From a virus: a DNA stretch of 21,507 nucleotides. The translations under genes and the position numbers were made by a program. The first letter of the stretch is position 1, and each line of letters begins with the position of its first letter. The notes below the pieces were generated by a model that was given only the letters and a program-made list of their open reading frames with translations, was not told where the DNA came from and searched no databases. Shown here one piece after another: positions 10,404 to 17,229 of the stretch. The stretch is from positions 1 to 21,507 of IMG/VR virus record IMGVR_UViG_3300007640_000291; one strand, 5' to 3'.

Positions 10404-11771
10404 CTAGCTCCAATTCCCGATCACCTTGATAAGGTTATTTGCGATATCAGATCGCTGCTGATCGTTGTACAACTTTTCAGTGGCAGATACTTCGAGAGAT
10501 TTCAGCATAGTCTCGTGCTGGCGCTGCTTTTCGCTCTCTGCCATAGTGAAATTAAATGTTGCGTTGTCGCGGTACATCTGCCACAACTGATTCATAGCCG
10601 TCTGAGAGGCGTTGAACTTGTTCTGTACGTTGATACGATTGGCTTCGTTTTGCGTGGCTGTATTCGCTGTGTTAATCTGCCTACGCCACTGAACGTTGGA
10701 TTGATCTATGGCAAATTTCATGTTGGCGTTAAACTTCTCACGCTGATCTGCCATAGATGCGTTGAATTCTTTGTAGGCGTTCTCTTGGTTGATATTGAAC
10801 TGCTTGACTGCCACGTCGCGGTTTAAGTTAGCAGTGTCAATCTGCACACCCAATTCAGTAAAGAACTCTTCCACTTGCAATTCGCTTTTTGCGTTGAACT
10901 GGCGTCGAGCATTCTCCGCAGCCGCGTCTGATAAAGCGGCCTGTGTTGCGGCGCTATATTTCAGTGCGTTGCTTTGCTGCTTTGCGTCAAGTTCTTTCAA
11001 GTCAATAGAAAGCAGTGCTTGTGCGTTGGATATGGCTGCTTTTGTGCGGGCATCAGCGTTTTGCCTGTCCATCGTGGCTACTTGCAAAGCGTTCTGCAAA
11101 GCCGCCTGTTGCCTGTTATCCAAATTCTTCATTTGGACAGCACCGTACATTTGGGCGTCTTGCGAGGCAATCGATATGCCCGATTCCATAACCTCACGAG
11201 TAATAGCCGCAGCAGCCATCGAAGAAGCCCCAAGACCGCGCTGCTGCATGATTGCGGTAGCTTTTCGGGCAGGACCGGAAGCCCAAGCGGGGAGAGGCTT
11301 GCCGTCCTCAATTCCCTTGAACAAATCCCCAAGCTGATATTGAACGGTGGCCCGCTCGTCTAGCTCGTCCGTGGCCGCCGTAGCGAAAGCCTCTTGGGAA
11401 AGAGCTTGCGACGATATGGCGTCGAGATCAATCAGATCAGAAGCAGTGAATTGGGACTGTGCCGCATCGGGATCTCCAAGGGCTTGAGTGGTGGCTAAAG
11501 CACTTTCCGTGGCGGCAATCTGCCCCGTAGCTGAGTCAGCGGGTTTAGTGCGCTGTTCAACTTGGTATTGTGACATATCCGCCGTAGAAAGAAGAGACGG
11601 ATCTACACCGGGCATCTGCCCCGGAGTGGTAGTTAGCTGCGCTGTGTCCGCAGGAAGAAGCTCAGACGCACTATCGACTGTTTGAAGGATGGGCTGTACC
11701 TGCGTAGCTTCGGTGCCCGCCTCTGCTGCCAGTTCTTCTGTGGTCTTTTCAAATTCGGGTTTTTCTGCCAT
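10404..11771 (-). CDS. Internal virion protein candidate with hendecad coiled coil (455 aa)
   Basis: A polar, Ala/Gln/Asn-rich helical protein that fits the T7 gp14-like place at the head of the ejection-protein block. Residues 1-150 are acidic and probably disordered. A conserved-looking segment, RGLGASSMAAAAITREVMES (178-197), is one I associate with similar marine phage proteins. From about 205 to 440 the chain is one long helix with repeated DNRQQ-like and F-N motifs; QFN, EFN and KFN recur exactly 11 residues apart at 325, 336 and 347, and another lies 33 residues earlier at 292. Such 11-residue spacing suggests a hendecad coiled coil. There is no catalytic motif. The ATG overlaps the preceding stop by one base. 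The role is inferred from family memory and position. Confidence 0.65.
   Translation of the reverse strand: MAEKPEFEKTTEELAAEAGTEATQVQPILQTVDSASELLPADTAQLTTTPGQMPGVDPSLLSTADMSQYQVEQRTKPADSATGQIAATESALATTQALGDPDAAQSQFTASDLIDLDAISSQALSQEAFATAATDELDERATVQYQLGDLFKGIEDGKPLPAWASGPARKATAIMQQRGLGASSMAAAAITREVMESGISIASQDAQMYGAVQMKNLDNRQQAALQNALQVATMDRQNADARTKAAISNAQALLSIDLKELDAKQQSNALKYSAATQAALSDAAAENARRQFNAKSELQVEEFFTELGVQIDTANLNRDVAVKQFNINQENAYKEFNASMADQREKFNANMKFAIDQSNVQWRRQINTANTATQNEANRINVQNKFNASQTAMNQLWQMYRDNATFNFTMAESEKQRQHETMLKSLEVSATEKLYNDQQRSDIANNLIKVIGNWS
10701..10901 (-). repeat. Coding repeat: 11-residue F-N coiled-coil units
   Basis: This part of the 455-aa gene (residues 291-357) encodes three consecutive 11-residue units beginning QFN, EFN and KFN, with a further QFN exactly three units upstream. 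It is a protein-level periodicity, not an exact DNA repeat. Confidence 0.6.
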
Positions 11772-11983
11772 TATTTAATTCCCATAAACACCGAGACGAC
11801 CATAGCCACGACCAAAACAGTGCTTCCCATTATCATAGCCTCGAGCCGCCACATTCGCTTGTCCAACGAATCTAACTTCCCGTGAACCAACTCACGAAAC
11901 ATAGCGCACTCTTTTTCATGCGCCTCAAGGTCCATTGCGACTTTTAATGAGTGTTCCGGAATTTGTTCATGTGCGAGTTTCAT
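11771..11983 (-). CDS. XhlA/holin-like small membrane protein (70 aa)
   Basis: The protein has an amphipathic, charged N-terminal helix (residues about 1-45, with HGKLDSLDKRMWRLE) and a single C-terminal transmembrane segment (about 49-67, IMGSTVLVVAMVVSVFMG), ending in IK. This architecture, a coiled helix then one membrane anchor in about 70-90 residues, is that of XhlA-type haemolysin/holin-associated proteins, which help phage lysis at the inner membrane. No endolysin is found nearby, so the lysis role is inferred; an alternative is a membrane-anchored virion or assembly factor. A GGTGGGG-type site precedes the ATG. The stop TAA is fused to the 455-aa gene start (TAATG), so expression is coupled to the ejection-protein block. 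The architecture is clear; the function is moderately supported. Confidence 0.65.
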   Translation of the reverse strand: MKLAHEQIPEHSLKVAMDLEAHEKECAMFRELVHGKLDSLDKRMWRLEAMIMGSTVLVVAMVVSVFMGIK

Positions 11984-11998
11984 ATCTTATCCCCACCT

Positions 11999-12511
11999 TT
12001 AGTACGCAAAAAAATTCATTGTGAACCGTGAATCGCCCTCAGTCTGCCCATAGTTAGATTTCGAGCAATGATATGGGTCACCGTAGAAAAGGACAAACCT
12101 GTTTTGAACAAACGGCACGTCTAAAATAACCGTGCCGCCATTGTCGGGGTGATTGTCAAAAAACAACGTCCCACTGTTTTGGTTTGTTTCTGACAGATAA
12201 ACAATGCCCGTACACAGGTTTTGATCTACATGAACCCAGTCTTTGCTAGTGCCGTATCGGTAATGCGTACACAGCGAAGCATGACTAAACGAAGATGGAA
12301 TAAACTCCCCAGCACAAGTCATAAACAGGCTAGATAGAACCGGGTCTGCCTTTAGATAATCTAAGCTGCGCTTCCCCGGCCAGTTGCCAGCATTAGGAAA
12401 GTCGGGATGCTCATCAGAAGTCCAATGCCCCCTCGCCTTTAGATGCTCTAGCATCTCCGGCAAATGTGGAAAAAACTCGTCAATGATAATATAGTGTGGC
12501 GATGATCTCAC
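11999..12511 (-). CDS. 2-oxoglutarate/Fe(II)-dependent oxygenase-like protein 3 (170 aa)
   Basis: A compact double-stranded beta-helix oxygenase candidate. The iron triad can be read as H94-V-D96 (in KDWVHVDQ) and H148 (DPYHCSKSN), with R162 (SRFTMNFF) as the likely 2-oxoglutarate anchor. A DUF6445-like affinity is suspected from the layout, with NWPGKRS upstream of the core, but I could not test it. The enzyme would hydroxylate or oxidise a peptide, nucleotide or small molecule using O2, 2-oxoglutarate and iron. The only sensible start is a GTG at 12511 with a weak AAGAG upstream; the gene follows the second oxygenase by four bases. It differs clearly in sequence from its two neighbours, so it is not a recent duplicate. 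The substrate is unknown. Confidence 0.75.
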   Translation of the reverse strand: MRSSPHYIIIDEFFPHLPEMLEHLKARGHWTSDEHPDFPNAGNWPGKRSLDYLKADPVLSSLFMTCAGEFIPSSFSHASLCTHYRYGTSKDWVHVDQNLCTGIVYLSETNQNSGTLFFDNHPDNGGTVILDVPFVQNRFVLFYGDPYHCSKSNYGQTEGDSRFTMNFFAY

Positions 12512-12515
12512 GCGG

Positions 12516-13124
12516 CTACGCTCTTAAAATATCGTATGGGTTTACGTCCGTGAACCATCCCGTTAGTATGTATTTTGTGCCTTTTATAGGCGGGTTTCCT
12601 CGATGGGTGTGTAAAAACCCTGCGGGAAAAACTGCGAACCTACCTGTAACGGGTGTAATTCTCATGTTTTGATACAGAAACTCTGTTTCACCGCCTTCAA
12701 AATCTCCGTTAAGGTATAGGGTCCATGCAAGTACCCTGTCCATGCTGAGGCCACGTTCGCACTCATAGTGCCACCCGTGAAATCCTCCCCCCGGAGAAGT
12801 TCTCTGCCCCTTTACATCCATACTCCAAAGGTCTCTCTGCGTTAGTATGGGGAATCTTGAAAGGTATTCTGGTAAAACTGCATTATGTAACCTGTCTAAG
12901 AACGCTTTGGTGTTTGCGCTGGAAATGAGTCCAACGGTCTTAAGACTGGCTAACTCTGCGAAATGTACGCCCTCATCTTGTCTATTTATCAGATTGTTCG
13001 ATTCGTAGGCGTAACCGCCCTCTATCAAAGTATCTATATTTTTACAGAAATCTTGACACTCTTCTGCGGACAGTAGGTTGTCTATGACAAGTATTTCTCC
13101 GTATGCGGACAATTCTATCTCCAT
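12516..13124 (-). CDS. 2-oxoglutarate/Fe(II)-dependent oxygenase, prolyl-hydroxylase-like 2 (202 aa)
   Basis: The N-terminus (ILVIDNLLSAEECQDFCKNI) is the usual start of prolyl-4-hydroxylase-like proteins. The metal site reads H119-Y-E121 (FHGWHYE), with Glu where most relatives have Asp, and H174 in LHTHRGNPP; K184 (KGTKYILTGWF) would bind 2-oxoglutarate. The core strand EGGETEFLYQ is typical. I recall WHYE and HTHRGNPP as features of a phage and bacterial subfamily, so the Glu ligand is probably functional. The ATG at 13124 is preferred over an in-frame TTG at 13142 because GAAGG lies six bases before it. It overlaps the first oxygenase gene by ten bases. Local base composition is AT-rich (hand count 20 G+C in 60 bases at 13021-13080). 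The substrate is unknown. Confidence 0.85.
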   Translation of the reverse strand: MEIELSAYGEILVIDNLLSAEECQDFCKNIDTLIEGGYAYESNNLINRQDEGVHFAELASLKTVGLISSANTKAFLDRLHNAVLPEYLSRFPILTQRDLWSMDVKGQRTSPGGGFHGWHYECERGLSMDRVLAWTLYLNGDFEGGETEFLYQNMRITPVTGRFAVFPAGFLHTHRGNPPIKGTKYILTGWFTDVNPYDILRA

Positions 13125-13660
13125 CGTGGACCTTCGAACCAAGCTACCAGTGACTTTCTCGTTCCTCGCGTTACCGGTGTAACCCGGTGAGTAAGGTATG
13201 ACGGAAAAACTAAAATAGTCCCTTTACTTTTTCTTCCGTAGGGAGGTTGTTCGGCGCGTTGAAACTCAAATTCCCCGCCGTCATATTCGTCGGGCGACGA
13301 CAACTGGACTGTCATAGATAGCTTCCTATCATACATGTTTGAGGAGTCCCACAGAACGTCTTCGTGCCAGTCGTAATGGCCATTTTCTTCGGCAAAGTAT
13401 TTCGTGTACTGGACCTCGCAGAACGGTGTAACATCGAAGTTAAAGGAAGACCTGTTAGCCTGTTGAATGTATGTCCACAAAGTCGCCTTAATTACATCGT
13501 CGTATACCCAACTTATCGAAGACTTTCTCACTGAATTTTCTTTCTTCCCTAGTGCGCTTATGCCAGCTTCTTGAGAGGAAAGTTGTTCTAGTCTTTCAAC
13601 TAAAGTGTCAACCTCGTGGGAAGGAATCACACTATCCCACATCTGCCACTCTGTCCGCAT
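13115..13660 (-). CDS. 2-oxoglutarate/Fe(II)-dependent oxygenase, prolyl-hydroxylase-like 1 (181 aa)
   Basis: A clear member of the prolyl-4-hydroxylase-like 2OG-Fe(II) oxygenases, close in pattern to PKHD-type and cyanophage enzymes. The iron ligands are H99-E-D101 (YDWHEDVLW) and H158 (SYLTHRVTPV); R168 (GTRKSLVAWF) should hold 2-oxoglutarate. Between them are the expected strands KLSMTVQLSSPDEYDGGEFEF and GTILVFPS (the former spans residues 113-133). Length is normal for a stand-alone catalytic domain and there is no signal peptide, so it acts in the cytoplasm. GGAG eight bases upstream supports the ATG. It is the first of three consecutive oxygenase genes and follows the tail chaperone-like gene by nine bases, so it is expressed late with the fibers. 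Possible roles are modification of a virion protein or of host metabolism; neither is shown. Confidence 0.88.
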   Translation of the reverse strand: MRTEWQMWDSVIPSHEVDTLVERLEQLSSQEAGISALGKKENSVRKSSISWVYDDVIKATLWTYIQQANRSSFNFDVTPFCEVQYTKYFAEENGHYDWHEDVLWDSSNMYDRKLSMTVQLSSPDEYDGGEFEFQRAEQPPYGRKSKGTILVFPSYLTHRVTPVTRGTRKSLVAWFEGPRWR

Positions 13661-13669
13661 ATTATGCTC

Positions 13670-14104
13670 CTAGATTGTGGGCCATGTCACGTTAGCCCAG
13701 ACGTATTTCCAGTCACTTTCGTTCCAAGTCATGTAGGCATTTGGATAATTAGAGGGAAGATCACGCAAGGCTTGCCTGTAAGCTGTCTGTTCAGCAGTAG
13801 GAGTCCGATCAGGCAGAACCATCCAGTCAGATGCCGCAAGTAACTTATCACGCTCATACCTTAGAAGCATCATCGCCTCTTCACCAGTAACATCTGCTGG
13901 CGGCACATAAGCACCAATAGCGCCAAAATCACCAGCCACTGCACGGTTATATATTTCAACACCATGCGGCTCATCGTCGAGGGGATTCGCTGCAAAATCC
14001 ACAAACTCATCTGAAAGATGGTCAAAGTTGACTTCGATTTCGATGAAGGTTTGTGCTGCGTTACCCCAAGCTGGGTTCCTTGCAGTTGTATATGTGTAGC
14101 TCAT
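13670..14104 (-). CDS. Tail fiber assembly chaperone-like protein (144 aa)
   Basis: The C-terminal half carries the signature of phage tail assembly chaperone proteins (Phage_tail_APC type): a helix ending in RDKLLAASDWMVLPDRTPTA, then QTAYRQALRDLP and NYPNA (residues about 83-123). The N-terminal part (YTTARNPAWGNAAQTFIEIEV) is variable and may recognise the partner fiber. Such proteins help fold or trimerise tail fibers and are normally coded next to them. Here the gene abuts the stop of the collagen-like fiber gene, which is its most likely client, with the 342-aa fiber next. There is no signal or membrane segment. The domain call is from memory of the family pattern. Confidence 0.8.
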   Translation of the reverse strand: MSYTYTTARNPAWGNAAQTFIEIEVNFDHLSDEFVDFAANPLDDEPHGVEIYNRAVAGDFGAIGAYVPPADVTGEEAMMLLRYERDKLLAASDWMVLPDRTPTAEQTAYRQALRDLPSNYPNAYMTWNESDWKYVWANVTWPTI

Positions 14105-14677
14105 TTAACTTACCCTCGTCCACGATGTCGCCCTGTCCTCGTCACTTGCATTTGTAGAGCGTCCCATGCACCTCCAAGTGCCGGAAGGCTGAGTGCCGAA
14201 CCCTTGAGCGCCCTTAGCATTTGTATTTTGTAACTGACCGCCGCCGATTGTATCGCCAGCATTATAATGGGTGTTGATATTGGGCTTGCAGAAATGAGTA
14301 ACCCCAACTTGATTAGCCCCAGTATTTTGTGGCCCCGCTGGACCTTGTGGTCCTGTTGGGCCTGTTGGGCCTTGTGGTCCTGATGGCCCTGTCGGCCCTG
14401 TTGTGCCTTGTGGGCCAGTCGCTCCCTGCGGGCCAGTCGGACCTGCTGCGCCGTCTGCGCCATTAGGGCCAGTCGGGCCAGTTGGGCCGGTCGGTCCTTG
14501 AAGCGCAGCGTTAGTGATAGTACCTTTGCGGATTACACCAGCACTGCTGTCGTATACCAAAACTGAGTCTCCGCCTTGAAATGAAGTCTCGACAGTTGCA
14601 CCGTTAATATCAAGTTGTTCAGCGACAATGTTTCCACTGTCGTCAACAACCGTAGTAGCTCCTACTTTGAATGCCAT
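14105..14677 (-). CDS. Collagen-like (Gly-X-Y) tail fiber protein (190 aa)
   Basis: A short fiber protein with three parts. Residues 1-60 form a beta-rich attachment region resembling phage fiber N-termini ([20 protein letters not shown]). Residues 61-117 are 19 uninterrupted Gly-X-Y triplets, mostly GPT and GPQ, which should make a collagen-like triple helix of about 16 nm or less. Residues 118-190 are a small C-terminal head with two cysteines (HFCKP and WRCMG), ending in SWTRVS, probably the receptor-binding or trimerising tip. Proline occupies the X position in 15 of 19 triplets and never the Y position, and there is no lysine in the repeat. The start overlaps the stop of the 342-aa fiber gene by one base. 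The protein probably trimerises and needs the adjacent chaperone. Confidence 0.85.
14327..14497 (-). repeat. Collagen-like Gly-X-Y coding repeat, 19 triplets
   Basis: A nine-base periodic run in the 190-aa fiber gene. The glycine codons stay in phase and near-identical GGNCCN units recur, so slippage or recombination could change the number of triplets and hence the fiber length. Confidence 0.85.
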
Positions 14678-15705
14678 TAGATTGTCCCCTCAGAGATAAC
14701 ATCGCCGGTCACTGTAAGATTACCGGACGTGTCTAGTTTCATTTTAGCTGTACCAGCATAGCTGATAATAAGGTTGTTACTGACAACACTGAATTGCCAG
14801 TCACTTGCACCGTTATCCAGTGTGAAAGTGTCACTGAGAACGTCGCCGGTTACGTCAATGCCTGTTGAGGTGGTGGCGAGTTTGACTGCGTTGTTGTAGA
14901 ACAGAGTGACAGCGCCATCTGCTACTGCTGTGAGCATTTCCTCACCAGTATATTTTTGCAGCTTAACTTGGTTTGCCCCTCGCATAAGCAGGAAACCCGT
15001 ACCCGCATCATCAATGTAGCTGTTGCTGCCATCGTGATAAATCTGCAAATCCGACCCAGCACCGAAAATGGCCTTGCCATTGTCATCAAACGTAGCGTTG
15101 CCAGTCACGTCGATGCCGGTGGCGGTGGTGGCGAGACGAGCAATATTGTCGTGGAACAATGTTGCCGCGCCGTTGGCGGCAAAAGTGGCCATTGACTCTG
15201 CACCATCTCCTGCCGTGATGTTTACATTTGCACCGTTGGAGGTGTCCAAATAAAGAGACCCAGTCCCAACCTCGTTGATGTAAGAATTAAGCCCATCATG
15301 AAACACCTCAAGGTCCGGCCCGTTTCCGAAAGCGGCTTTTACACTATCACTGAATGACAAGTCGCCGCTGGTCTTGGTATCTGCCGCATCGCTACGAAGG
15401 AACGAGGTGCTGTCGATGTTGTCGAGGAGTGCTGCGTTGGATGCTGTACCTGTGAGAGGTCCAGTAAACCCGGCGGCGGTAATTGTCGTTGTCGAGTCAA
15501 TCTTTGCGCCAGTTACAGCATCGTCAGCAAGACCCCCCGTGTCAATCTGCGGACCTTCGCCGGTAGTACCGTCGTGGCTGTGTCCTGTTGTCGCGTTGAA
15601 CGCAGCTTGTACCGCATCAAATTCGCCGTCCAAGTCGGAAGCGTTGATGACGTTACCGTCTGCGATGTTATTCGCAGTGTCATTACGAGTATAGCCTGTA
15701 CCCAT
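14677..15705 (-). CDS. Tail fiber protein with internal repeats (342 aa)
   Basis: A probable tail fiber or tail-spike-like protein. The N-terminus ([22 protein letters not shown], residues 4-25) and the region [17 protein letters not shown] are common in phage fiber proteins that attach to the tail. The body contains two homologous units: residues about 123-203 and 211-287, each starting KAxFGxGxDLxxxHDGxNSYI and ending LATTxTGIDVTG. These beta-rich repeats probably form part of a trimeric shaft. The C-terminus ([16 protein letters not shown]) is another fiber-like strand motif; I see no intramolecular chaperone with its cleavage motif. A strong GGAGGAG seven bases before the ATG supports the start. 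It follows the nozzle gene by three bases and shares one base with the collagen-like gene. Confidence 0.82.
14845..15339 (-). repeat. Two diverged coding repeats in the tail fiber gene
   Basis: Unit 1 is 15097-15339 (residues 123-203) and unit 2 is 14845-15075 (residues 211-287). Key matched residues are FG, DL, HDG, NSYI, GTG, and LATT-TGIDVTG. The copies are diverged, so the duplication is old. Confidence 0.7.
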
Positions 15706-15708
15706 TTT

Positions 15709-17229
15709 TTATCTCCTCCCGTATGTCGCGAATTCTAGAGTCGCAGCATCTACGGTAAATACAGCGTCTGTACTAGTTCCTGTTGTTTCATATAGTATCG
15801 ACACTGTGAATCCTGATCCTATTGTGGGTACTTCAAAAATAGCTTTCTGTTTTGTACCCAAAAGTGAAGTGCCGTAAATACCCGAGCCGTAAGTAATAGA
15901 AGCCCCTGCATCAGAGCTTAGTATCGAATCCGGTTGTGGCGAGTCCGGCTGGTCAAAGTCAAACTTCAAAGAAAACTGCAGATCAAACGCGCCGTTCACA
16001 TCCAAATAAGTAGTGCCCTTGTATATCGTCTTACGAAGCTCTGAGTCGCCCAGCGGAACAAATGGAGTAGCGAATGTAGCTACAATGTCAGTGCCGTCTT
16101 GAGTGTTCCCCTGTTCCATCTGATATACGTAGCCATCTTTAGCGGCAAAGTATATTCGTTCTGCGAACCCGTCGTATTCACTGTATGTAACGTATGCGTT
16201 GAAGCCCCGGAGGTCGTTCCAAGAAATACCCTCTTGAAGCTGTGTTCCCGCGATACCCTTTGCCGCATCGTTAGTATACGCGCCGTTAAATCCAAACAGC
16301 CGGTATTGACTCTTCTCACGAATGATGGTACTGGAGAATACCGTGCTACTCGAAACCAAGTCAGTGACTTCTGTCTGAATCGGCTTAGATATGACCCCAA
16401 GACTAAAATCACCCACACGATCCGTAGCCGAAAAGAGCCGCAAACCATCCGGCCCTAAGAACATGATGTCTCCGCCTATTTCCTGAATGGTATCTTCGGC
16501 GACACATCCCAAATCTCGCGACACAGGCTGCAACTGAAAGTCTCCGACACTACTACCAGCCAACCTGTTAATTGAAGTTTCACTAAAAATGATCAGTTGA
16601 TCACGAAAAACAATCAGTCCGGTTATAGTATCTGCAATATTAATTATACCACCGCCGCTGGCACTTGTAAAGTCATCATCTTCGTATGGGGCCGAAAAAA
16701 CAAGGTTTTTGCCGTTTCCAAGAAAGATGTGGTTCTTGAAGTTGACAATGTGACTTGATCCAGCAGTGTCAGATGGCAGGGATGTTAGCTGTTCGAAGGT
16801 GGTTCCGTCGAATCTGAACGGCTTACCACTGCCGTCCACGATAAGAATCTTTTCGGTGCCGTCAAAATCATACTTAAGAAATCTGATTCTTTCTGATCCG
16901 CCAAGAGTGATGCCTGTGCTGCCGAACGAGGCGTTGTCCGTGATCTGCGTCCATCCCGATCCTGCGGAGCGAAAAAGATCATCACCCCGTGCAGCATAGA
17001 CATTCCCCCCGTATCTCACGATACCTCTAACATTACCACTATTAGACAGTGCGCTACTGTCAAACTTCTCGTATCCCTCAACACGACGATACCCGCCGAA
17101 AACAGACGGTTCAAAGTTACGCAGGATACGGGCAGAACCCGGAGCCTGAACACCCTGCTGATAGGGCGAAAGGTTAGTCACCAGTCCGCCCTTGAATTCA
17201 AAGGGGTATGTTTGCCACCTATCCGGCAT
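15709..17229 (-). CDS. Tail nozzle/stabilisation protein, beta-propeller-like (506 aa)
   Basis: Probable tail tube tip of a short-tailed phage, in the role of T7 gp12 or P22 gp10. The N-terminus (FKGGLVTNLSPYQQGVQAPG, then RNFEPSVFGGYRRVEGYEKF) is a pattern I know from phage tail/nozzle proteins. The middle holds repeated short blade-like segments such as RGIVRYGGNVYAARGDDLF, TEKILIVDGSGKPFRFDG and NHIFLGNGKNLVFSAP, as expected of a beta propeller, and the C-terminal third is a beta sandwich (GSGFTVSILYETTGTSTDA). The gene abuts the stop of the adaptor gene directly upstream, the order T7-like phages use. The ribosome site is weak, so translation may depend on coupling. The family role is well supported by position; similarity to T7 itself is not evident. 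Confidence 0.8.
   Translation of the reverse strand: MPDRWQTYPFEFKGGLVTNLSPYQQGVQAPGSARILRNFEPSVFGGYRRVEGYEKFDSSALSNSGNVRGIVRYGGNVYAARGDDLFRSAGSGWTQITDNASFGSTGITLGGSERIRFLKYDFDGTEKILIVDGSGKPFRFDGTTFEQLTSLPSDTAGSSHIVNFKNHIFLGNGKNLVFSAPYEDDDFTSASGGGIINIADTITGLIVFRDQLIIFSETSINRLAGSSVGDFQLQPVSRDLGCVAEDTIQEIGGDIMFLGPDGLRLFSATDRVGDFSLGVISKPIQTEVTDLVSSSTVFSSTIIREKSQYRLFGFNGAYTNDAAKGIAGTQLQEGISWNDLRGFNAYVTYSEYDGFAERIYFAAKDGYVYQMEQGNTQDGTDIVATFATPFVPLGDSELRKTIYKGTTYLDVNGAFDLQFSLKFDFDQPDSPQPDSILSSDAGASITYGSGIYGTSLLGTKQKAIFEVPTIGSGFTVSILYETTGTSTDAVFTVDAATLEFATYGRR

Follow-up and report, generated by a model that had tools for sequence, protein, structure and literature searches.

A putative tail-fibre modification cassette of three 2-oxoglutarate-dependent oxygenase genes beside a collagen-like fibre gene in a marine phage

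Background

Why should a phage carry three different iron-dependent oxygenase genes in a row among the genes for its virion proteins? The question is raised by a virus contig of 21,507 bases (IMG/VR record IMGVR_UViG_3300007640_000291, positions 1 to 21,507), the whole of which we refer to as the window. On its minus strand, at 13660-11999, there are three intact, adjacent and mutually distant genes for 2-oxoglutarate (2OG)-Fe(II) oxygenases, here called oxy1, oxy2 and oxy3 in the order of their transcription. We propose, with a probability of roughly 70%, that these genes constitute a swappable cassette for tail-fibre modification, in which oxy1 would be a prolyl hydroxylase acting on position X of the Gly-Pro-Thr (GPT) triplets of a collagen-like fibre, and oxy2 and oxy3 would act on the same fibre. 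Directly established are the three intact genes, their folds and the co-occurrence of oxy1 with collagens that carry proline in X. The gene for this (Gly-Pro-Thr)n fibre, which lies one gene upstream of the oxygenases, had been overlooked in an earlier note on this DNA, made by a model from the sequence alone.

According to a study of prophage collagens from 2012 (PMC3368898), the prolyl hydroxylases that collagen requires are absent from bacteria and viruses; a virome study from 2022 called the viral use of prolyl 4-hydroxylase (P4H) "cryptic" (PMC9301287). In papers on marine phages (PMC10436341, PMC11288001), oxygenases of this kind figure only as auxiliary genes or as genes of DNA repair. 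Our literature search, with preprints and most subscription papers outside its scope and priority therefore unproven, found no report that links a phage collagen to hydroxylases of its own.

The three oxygenase genes

The adjacency and intactness of the three genes, as described in the earlier note, are confirmed. Both oxy1 and oxy2 exceed the cut-off of the Pfam family PF13640 (Table 1); the Pfam search of oxy3 gave nothing above cut-off, the best match being DUF6445 (E 0.007). Homologues of each oxygenase were gathered and then aligned, and the iron triads and 2OG anchors that had been proposed for the three proteins are invariant among their relatives (H99, D101, H158 and R168 of oxy1 in alignments of 22 and of 27 sequences; H119, H174 and K184 of oxy2 in 15 sequences; H94, D96, H148 and R162 of oxy3 in five sequences of 28-70% identity), except that position 121 of oxy2, which had been read as Glu, is either Glu or Asp. 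As had been predicted, the AlphaFold2 model of oxy3 (predicted local distance difference test score, pLDDT, 79) is a jelly-roll of eight strands, in which the motif residues follow the canonical order; its top matches in the Protein Data Bank (PDB) are 2OG oxygenases of mixed kinds. The sequence profile of oxy3 found a single weak and irrelevant match among PDB sequences, and no relatives were found among named phages or in bacteria. The model of oxy1, predicted from an alignment of viral contigs only, has a pLDDT of 92, and its double-stranded beta-helix fold is supported by PDB matches to 2OG oxygenases; the fold of oxy2 is taken from its match to the PF13640 family.

The three genes are not tandem copies, since oxy1 and oxy2 share only ~20 bits of similarity and oxy3 detects neither of them. 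To call them unrelated-looking, as the earlier note did, does justice to their mutual distance but not to the matches that oxy1 and oxy2 have in common, to phrog_61 and PF13640. We also observed that the 2OG oxygenase domains here match PHROG families 274, 2297, 1644 and 3531, whose labels (DNA endonuclease V, DNA endonuclease, minor coat protein and ferrochelatase) look wrong, or look as if they had come from neighbouring genes or fusions.

Association of oxy1 with collagen-like fibres

The collagen-like fibre protein of the window matches PF01391 at 37.3 bits (cut-off 27.2) and has a long Gly-X-Y run in a tail-fibre operon. In a six-frame scan of the homologue loci, most homologues of oxy1 had Gly-X-Y runs on their upstream side. 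After these had been clustered at 85% identity, a collagen-like open reading frame (ORF) was counted upstream and on the same strand in 19 of 21 clusters, and in an enlarged set a collagen-like ORF occurs in the neighbourhood of 40 of 44 clusters, the other four being distant relatives with 34-39% identity to oxy1 of the window. Because this sample had been drawn by oxy1 itself, a second one was drawn by an unrelated tail protein (15709-17229), which yielded 29 loci of HMO-2011-like phages with at least 3.5 kb beyond the tail gene. Collagen and oxy1 are found together in eight of these loci, neither is found in 21, and one without the other in none (Fisher 2e-7 for the co-occurrence in the 29 loci, with no correction for kinship). 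Since four of the 21 loci without collagen and oxy1 hold other oxygenases, either of the oxy2 type or distantly related to oxy1, the tie to collagen is specific to the close homologues of oxy1. The candidate substrate that co-occurs with oxy1 contains proline, and has it in X, as against Y in animals. Here and below, calls of absence for oxy1, collagen and the PLOD-like gene rest on contig fragments, except in the complete genome of Roseobacter phage CRP-6.

Matching of enzymes to residues

In many of the relatives of oxy1 the next gene encodes a protein of ~590 residues with GT25, GT_PLOD and 2OG domains, to which we refer as PLOD-like. Parts of this single chain match procollagen galactosyltransferase 1 (COLGALT1; residues 16-95), the glycosyltransferase domain of LH3 (181-396) and the lysyl hydroxylase domain of L230 (424-587). 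The collagens of phages that bear the PLOD-like gene have lysine in Y, as in GQK and GAK triplets, and practically none in X. Lys(Y)-rich collagens are found in all of the 15 clusters that were drawn by the PLOD-like gene, and within this set oxy1 is present wherever there are at least 19 prolines in X (10/10) and absent wherever there are none or one (5/5). Conversely, in the clusters drawn by oxy1 the PLOD-like gene accompanies 20 of the 20 collagens with at least five lysines in Y and only one of the 18 with fewer, and in that single exception the contig ends within a Lys repeat of the fibre gene. Phage CRP-6, whose fibre has 54 triplets with 14 lysines in Y and only five prolines in X, carries the PLOD-like gene and has neither oxy1 nor any other PF13640 match in its complete genome. 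The window is consistent with the pattern: the 19 triplets of its collagen contain 15 prolines in X and no lysine, and it has no gene with GT_PLOD and lysyl hydroxylase domains. The presence of the PLOD-like gene needs five changes on the oxy1 tree, at least three of them forced by well-supported branches, and the presence of oxy1 needs at least two on the PLOD tree.

The presence of oxy1, then, goes with proline in X and that of the PLOD-like gene with lysine in Y, and it is because of this pattern that the case connecting oxy1 with collagen is residue-specific. Threonine was considered as the target of oxy1 and is less likely, given that the Lys-only collagens without oxy1 keep 33% Thr in Y. 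The earlier note had suggested a multi-step modification or three substrates, expressed late and along with the virion proteins. Modification of a virion substrate and late co-expression are both supported; the pattern points to residue-specific enzymes (for proline in the case of oxy1, and for lysine in the case of the PLOD-like protein of relatives) more than to the successive modification of a single residue.

Exchange of the cassette between relatives

Comparison with blastn revealed three contigs (L101, L103 and L116) that are 93-99% identical to the window from 15333 up and 96% identical to it below 11996. Between these flanks the chaperone gene is 74% identical and the oxygenase block has no detectable nucleotide similarity to that of the window; their block also consists of three oxygenase-like genes, one homologous to oxy1, one for another kind of PF13640 protein and one that is DUF6445-like. 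Relatives with a different cassette keep the small gene just below 11996 at 96% identity. Judged from such sequence mosaics, the oxygenase cassette moves as a unit.

The trio recurs, in the same order, in the divergent relative L007, with 52-70% identity for oxy2 and oxy3, of which oxy3 (70%) is the most conserved member of the trio. Other trios stand behind collagen fibres in L101, L103 and L116 and in cyanophages: in S-PRM1, S-8S55 and S-CAM9, a GPT/GQK collagen fibre is followed by consecutive oxy2-like, oxy1-like and PLOD-like genes, the oxy2-like gene lying between oxy1 and the small neighbour of the fibre gene. The neighbourhood comparison that the earlier note had proposed thus gives support to the trio, and the possibility it had named, of a trio unique to one genome and with decaying members, is contradicted by L007 as to uniqueness and mildly favoured by it as to decay, as described below. 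An extra gene is often located between the chaperone gene and oxy1, such as a DUF6065-like gene in L120:8892-9614, a 2OG oxygenase gene in L101:5498-6091 and an unassigned gene in L007:4905-5636.

Contrary observations and alternative explanations

Several observations speak against the proposal that the three oxygenases modify the collagen-like fibre. The lysine that anchors 2OG in collagen P4Hs, including the viral collagen prolyl hydroxylase (vCPH), is not what is found in oxy1, with its invariant Arg168; the anchor of oxy2 is the invariant Lys184. An Arg anchor is typical of PHD and PKHD enzymes, and because of it we do not file oxy1 in the Lys-anchored family of collagen P4Hs (CP4H/vCPH), and suggest that it would work like a collagen P4H without being a member of that family. 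Oxy1 of L007 (L007:5528-6028) lacks the N-terminal 30-45 residues and is possibly decaying, to judge from its sequence, despite having kept its active site; the same gene overlaps one of 243 residues. When the test was reversed and IMG/VR was scanned collagen-first for Gly-Pro-Thr repeats, only 4 of the 45 GPT-rich contigs with at least 3 kb downstream had an oxygenase nearby, and no PF13640 match over cut-off was present in the other 41 whole GPT-collagen records. The idea that phage collagens need oxygenases was rejected on this ground; because most GPT collagens have no such enzyme, modification would be optional, and the implication runs only from oxy1 to collagen. Relatives of oxy2 occur without collagen, among them two orthologues of ~52% identity (L008:1466-2065 and L009:882-1481) that are located just before replication genes on contigs with no collagen, and relatives of oxy3 (~30% identity) occur in oxygenase clusters without collagen, for which reason the targets of oxy2 and oxy3 are less certain than that of oxy1. 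A pelagic phage (L374:2382-7130, and likewise L375) has, behind a glycine-rich non-collagen fibre, a sulfotransferase-like gene and five or more genes that resemble oxygenases, which suggests that fibres of other types also have modification cassettes.

The alternative nearest to our proposal, tentative at somewhat less than even odds, is that only oxy1 acts on collagen and that oxy2 and oxy3 modify other parts of the virion, such as the fibre tip or other tail proteins, in the manner of marine phages whose several oxygenase genes stand behind Gly-rich fibres that are not collagens. Such a division would agree with the relatives of oxy2 and oxy3 beside tail-fibre genes without collagen, and with the constancy of oxy1 where the other members of the trio vary, but it leaves unexplained why the window and L007 keep the whole trio, with oxy3 more conserved than the rest, and why cyanophages insert an oxy2-like gene on the collagen side of oxy1. 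It is unlikely that the linkage reflects the joint transfer of a tail-fibre cassette with no relation of enzyme to substrate. Cassette swapping is clear in these genomes and tail-fibre genes are mobile, yet joint transfer alone fails to explain why collagens free of proline are without exactly oxy1 and those free of lysine without exactly the PLOD-like gene, or why changes are repeated on the trees of both enzymes.

Two further explanations place the substrate elsewhere. It seems rather improbable that oxy1 hydroxylates a host protein and so alters translation, as by prolyl hydroxylation of EF-Tu in the manner of the Pseudomonas P4H, its position by the fibre reflecting late expression only: such a target would not make oxy1 follow the collagen fibre and its prolines, nor make the block swap together with fibre-side DNA, even though no structure matches oxy1 better than that of the P. 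putida P4H bound to EF-Tu. The usual label for phage 2OG oxygenases, that of metabolic or DNA-repair auxiliary genes (PMC11288001, PMC10436341), is a highly improbable account of the trio. It is backed by annotation habit and by the PHROG labels "DNA endonuclease V" and "ferrochelatase" that match trio proteins; roles in DNA repair or metabolism suggested by these labels and by "minor coat protein" were rejected as probable mislabels. The neighbours of oxy1 and oxy2 in fold and sequence are mainly peptidyl-prolyl and collagen hydroxylases, and an auxiliary role would not account for the linkage to a structural gene or for the covariation with particular residues.

A proposed course of fibre maturation

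We prefer the reading in which the trio serves the collagen-like fibre. Oxy1 is likely a collagen prolyl hydroxylase and oxy2 probably a second one, and oxy3 is best read as a fibre hydroxylase with another target residue. For the catalysis, its substrate and site, the succession of steps and the consequences for the virion we infer the following. The fibre protein, chaperone and oxygenases would be made together late in infection, and oxy1 would hydroxylate the X prolines of unfolded Gly-Pro-Thr strands, probably before the three chains fold. Oxy2 might act on the same fibre in another sequence context or at another ring position, and oxy3, as a DUF6445-type enzyme, might hydroxylate another residue of the fibre or of its tip. 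The hydroxylated strands would then trimerise into a triple-helical fibre that might be harder or differently recognised.

More broadly, we consider it rather more probable than its opposite that marine tailed phages have a modular system of collagen maturation, in which the X-prolyl hydroxylases (oxy1 and the P4H-like oxy2) are joined in relatives by a lysyl hydroxylase-galactosyl/glucosyltransferase of one chain, each enzyme being matched to the prolines or lysines of its own fibre, and in which X-hydroxylated Gly-Pro-Thr gives a stable helix, unlike the Y-position 4-hydroxyproline of animals. In work on Riftia cuticle collagen, peptides of Gly-Hyp-Thr reportedly formed a stable triple helix and those of Gly-Pro-Thr did not, for which our literature search found no confirmation; if true, hydroxylation might directly benefit repeats as short as the 19 triplets of the window.

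A residue-matched pairing of enzyme and substrate would assign a concrete and testable task in virion maturation to a large class of the oxygenases that are called "auxiliary" in marine phages, and would tie the building of tail fibres to O2 and iron. The phage oxygenases might also serve as compact enzymes for the production of hydroxylated collagen in bacteria. The cultured phages CRP-6, S-CAM9, S-PRM1 and S-8S55 make a direct test possible.

Genome context

The assignment of the window to the HMO-2011-like marine phages was made from its sequence, because one stretch of it resembles Puniceispirillum phage HMO-2011, and the late genes on its minus strand have matches among tail and virion PHROGs. 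A nucleotide search against named phages returned short matches only, and placement is no finer than this. The genes are transcribed in the order tail fibre, collagen-like protein, chaperone, oxy1, oxy2, oxy3 and the small protein of 70 residues (Table 1). An alternative start of oxy2, a TTG at 13142, would give a protein of 208 residues. The earlier note had placed the trio between fiber and ejection genes, and the fibre side of this statement agrees with the collagen-like and chaperone genes upstream. On the other side there are genes for two very large proteins (945 and 1725 residues; 9356-1342, minus strand), for which a PHROG search gave no match and an ejection role is suggested by position only.

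Table 1. Features of the oxygenase locus in the window and PLOD-like genes of related phages
Feature	Location	Strand	Evidence or remark
Tail fibre gene, 5' of the collagen gene	14677..15705	-	PHROG tail/virion families
Collagen-like tail-fibre protein, 190 residues, proposed substrate	14105..14677	-	PF01391 E 2.4e-9; tail fibre PHROGs
Collagen repeat, 19 Gly-X-Y triplets	14327..14497	-	15 with Pro in X; 0 with Pro or Lys in Y
Tail fibre assembly chaperone, located between the collagen-like gene and oxy1	13670..14104	-	PF16778 E 1.1e-9
oxy1, 181 residues, 2OG-Fe(II) oxygenase, candidate collagen prolyl hydroxylase	13115..13660	-	PF13640 E 2.6e-16
oxy1 motif codons	H99 13366-13364; D101 13360-13358; H158 13189-13187; R168 13159-13157	-	
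oxy2, P4H-like 2OG-Fe(II) oxygenase, 202 residues from ATG	12516..13124	-	PF13640 E 7.7e-12
oxy2 motif codons	H119 12770-12768; E121 12764-12762; H174 12605-12603; K184 12575-12573	-	
oxy3, 170 residues, GTG start, divergent DUF6445-like 2OG-Fe(II) oxygenase	11999..12511	-	Motif and AlphaFold2 model
oxy3 motif codons	H94 12232-12230; D96 12226-12224; H148 12070-12068; R162 12028-12026	-	
Small protein, 70 residues, with a hydrophobic stretch at the C terminus; right-hand border of the exchanged cassette	11771..11983	-	ORF; phrog_38642 E 3.5e-5
Oxygenase block, swapped as a whole among close relatives	11996..13680	.	blastn mosaic
Single-chain GT25 + GT_PLOD + lysyl hydroxylase genes	L080:5225-7018; L068:3341-5089; L074:6525-8315; CRP-6 (L178:7998-9767); S-PRM1 (L179:7872-9716)		

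Comparison with known systems

The structures nearest to the model of oxy1 are the P. putida P4H with EF-Tu, a Dictyostelium PHD, the collagen prolyl hydroxylase of virus PBCV-1, PiuC and PHD2; of its best PDB matches listed, most are P4H, PHD or vCPH enzymes, and the rest are the PKHD-type PiuC and a putative oxygenase of Shewanella. This likeness favours prolyl hydroxylation by oxy1 independently of the genomic pattern. The vCPH of the Chlorella virus PBCV-1 (PDB 5c5t) resembles oxy1 in being a virus-encoded 2OG enzyme with the prolyl hydroxylase fold, but it belongs to a virus of eukaryotic algae and has <25% identity, whereas oxy1 occurs in tailed bacteriophages and near a collagen gene. 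PiuC and Sbal_3634, of PKHD type, are the best sequence matches of oxy1, and the Pseudomonas EF-Tu P4H is its best fold match; all three differ from it in being cellular enzymes, and we know of no collagen substrate for any of them.

The P4H of Bacillus anthracis is a prokaryotic peptidyl-proline hydroxylase that acts on collagen-like peptides. By sequence and by family profile (1.2e-12) it is the best PDB match of oxy2 (PDB 3itq, 5hv0), followed in the profile search by the P4H of PBCV-1 as the second-best group (3.6e-10); it differs in being a cellular enzyme, with no tail-fibre linkage here. Mimivirus L230 and the human LH3 and COLGALT1 have the domains that the phage PLOD-like protein matches, but in the latter all three parts are joined in one chain, and the window differs from the L230 and LH3 systems in having no PLOD-like gene and a collagen without lysine. 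The 2OG clusters of cyanophages and pelagiphages have, like the window, several 2OG genes per genome (PF13640 matches number seven in S-PRM1 and ten in S-8S55), some of them behind collagen fibres.
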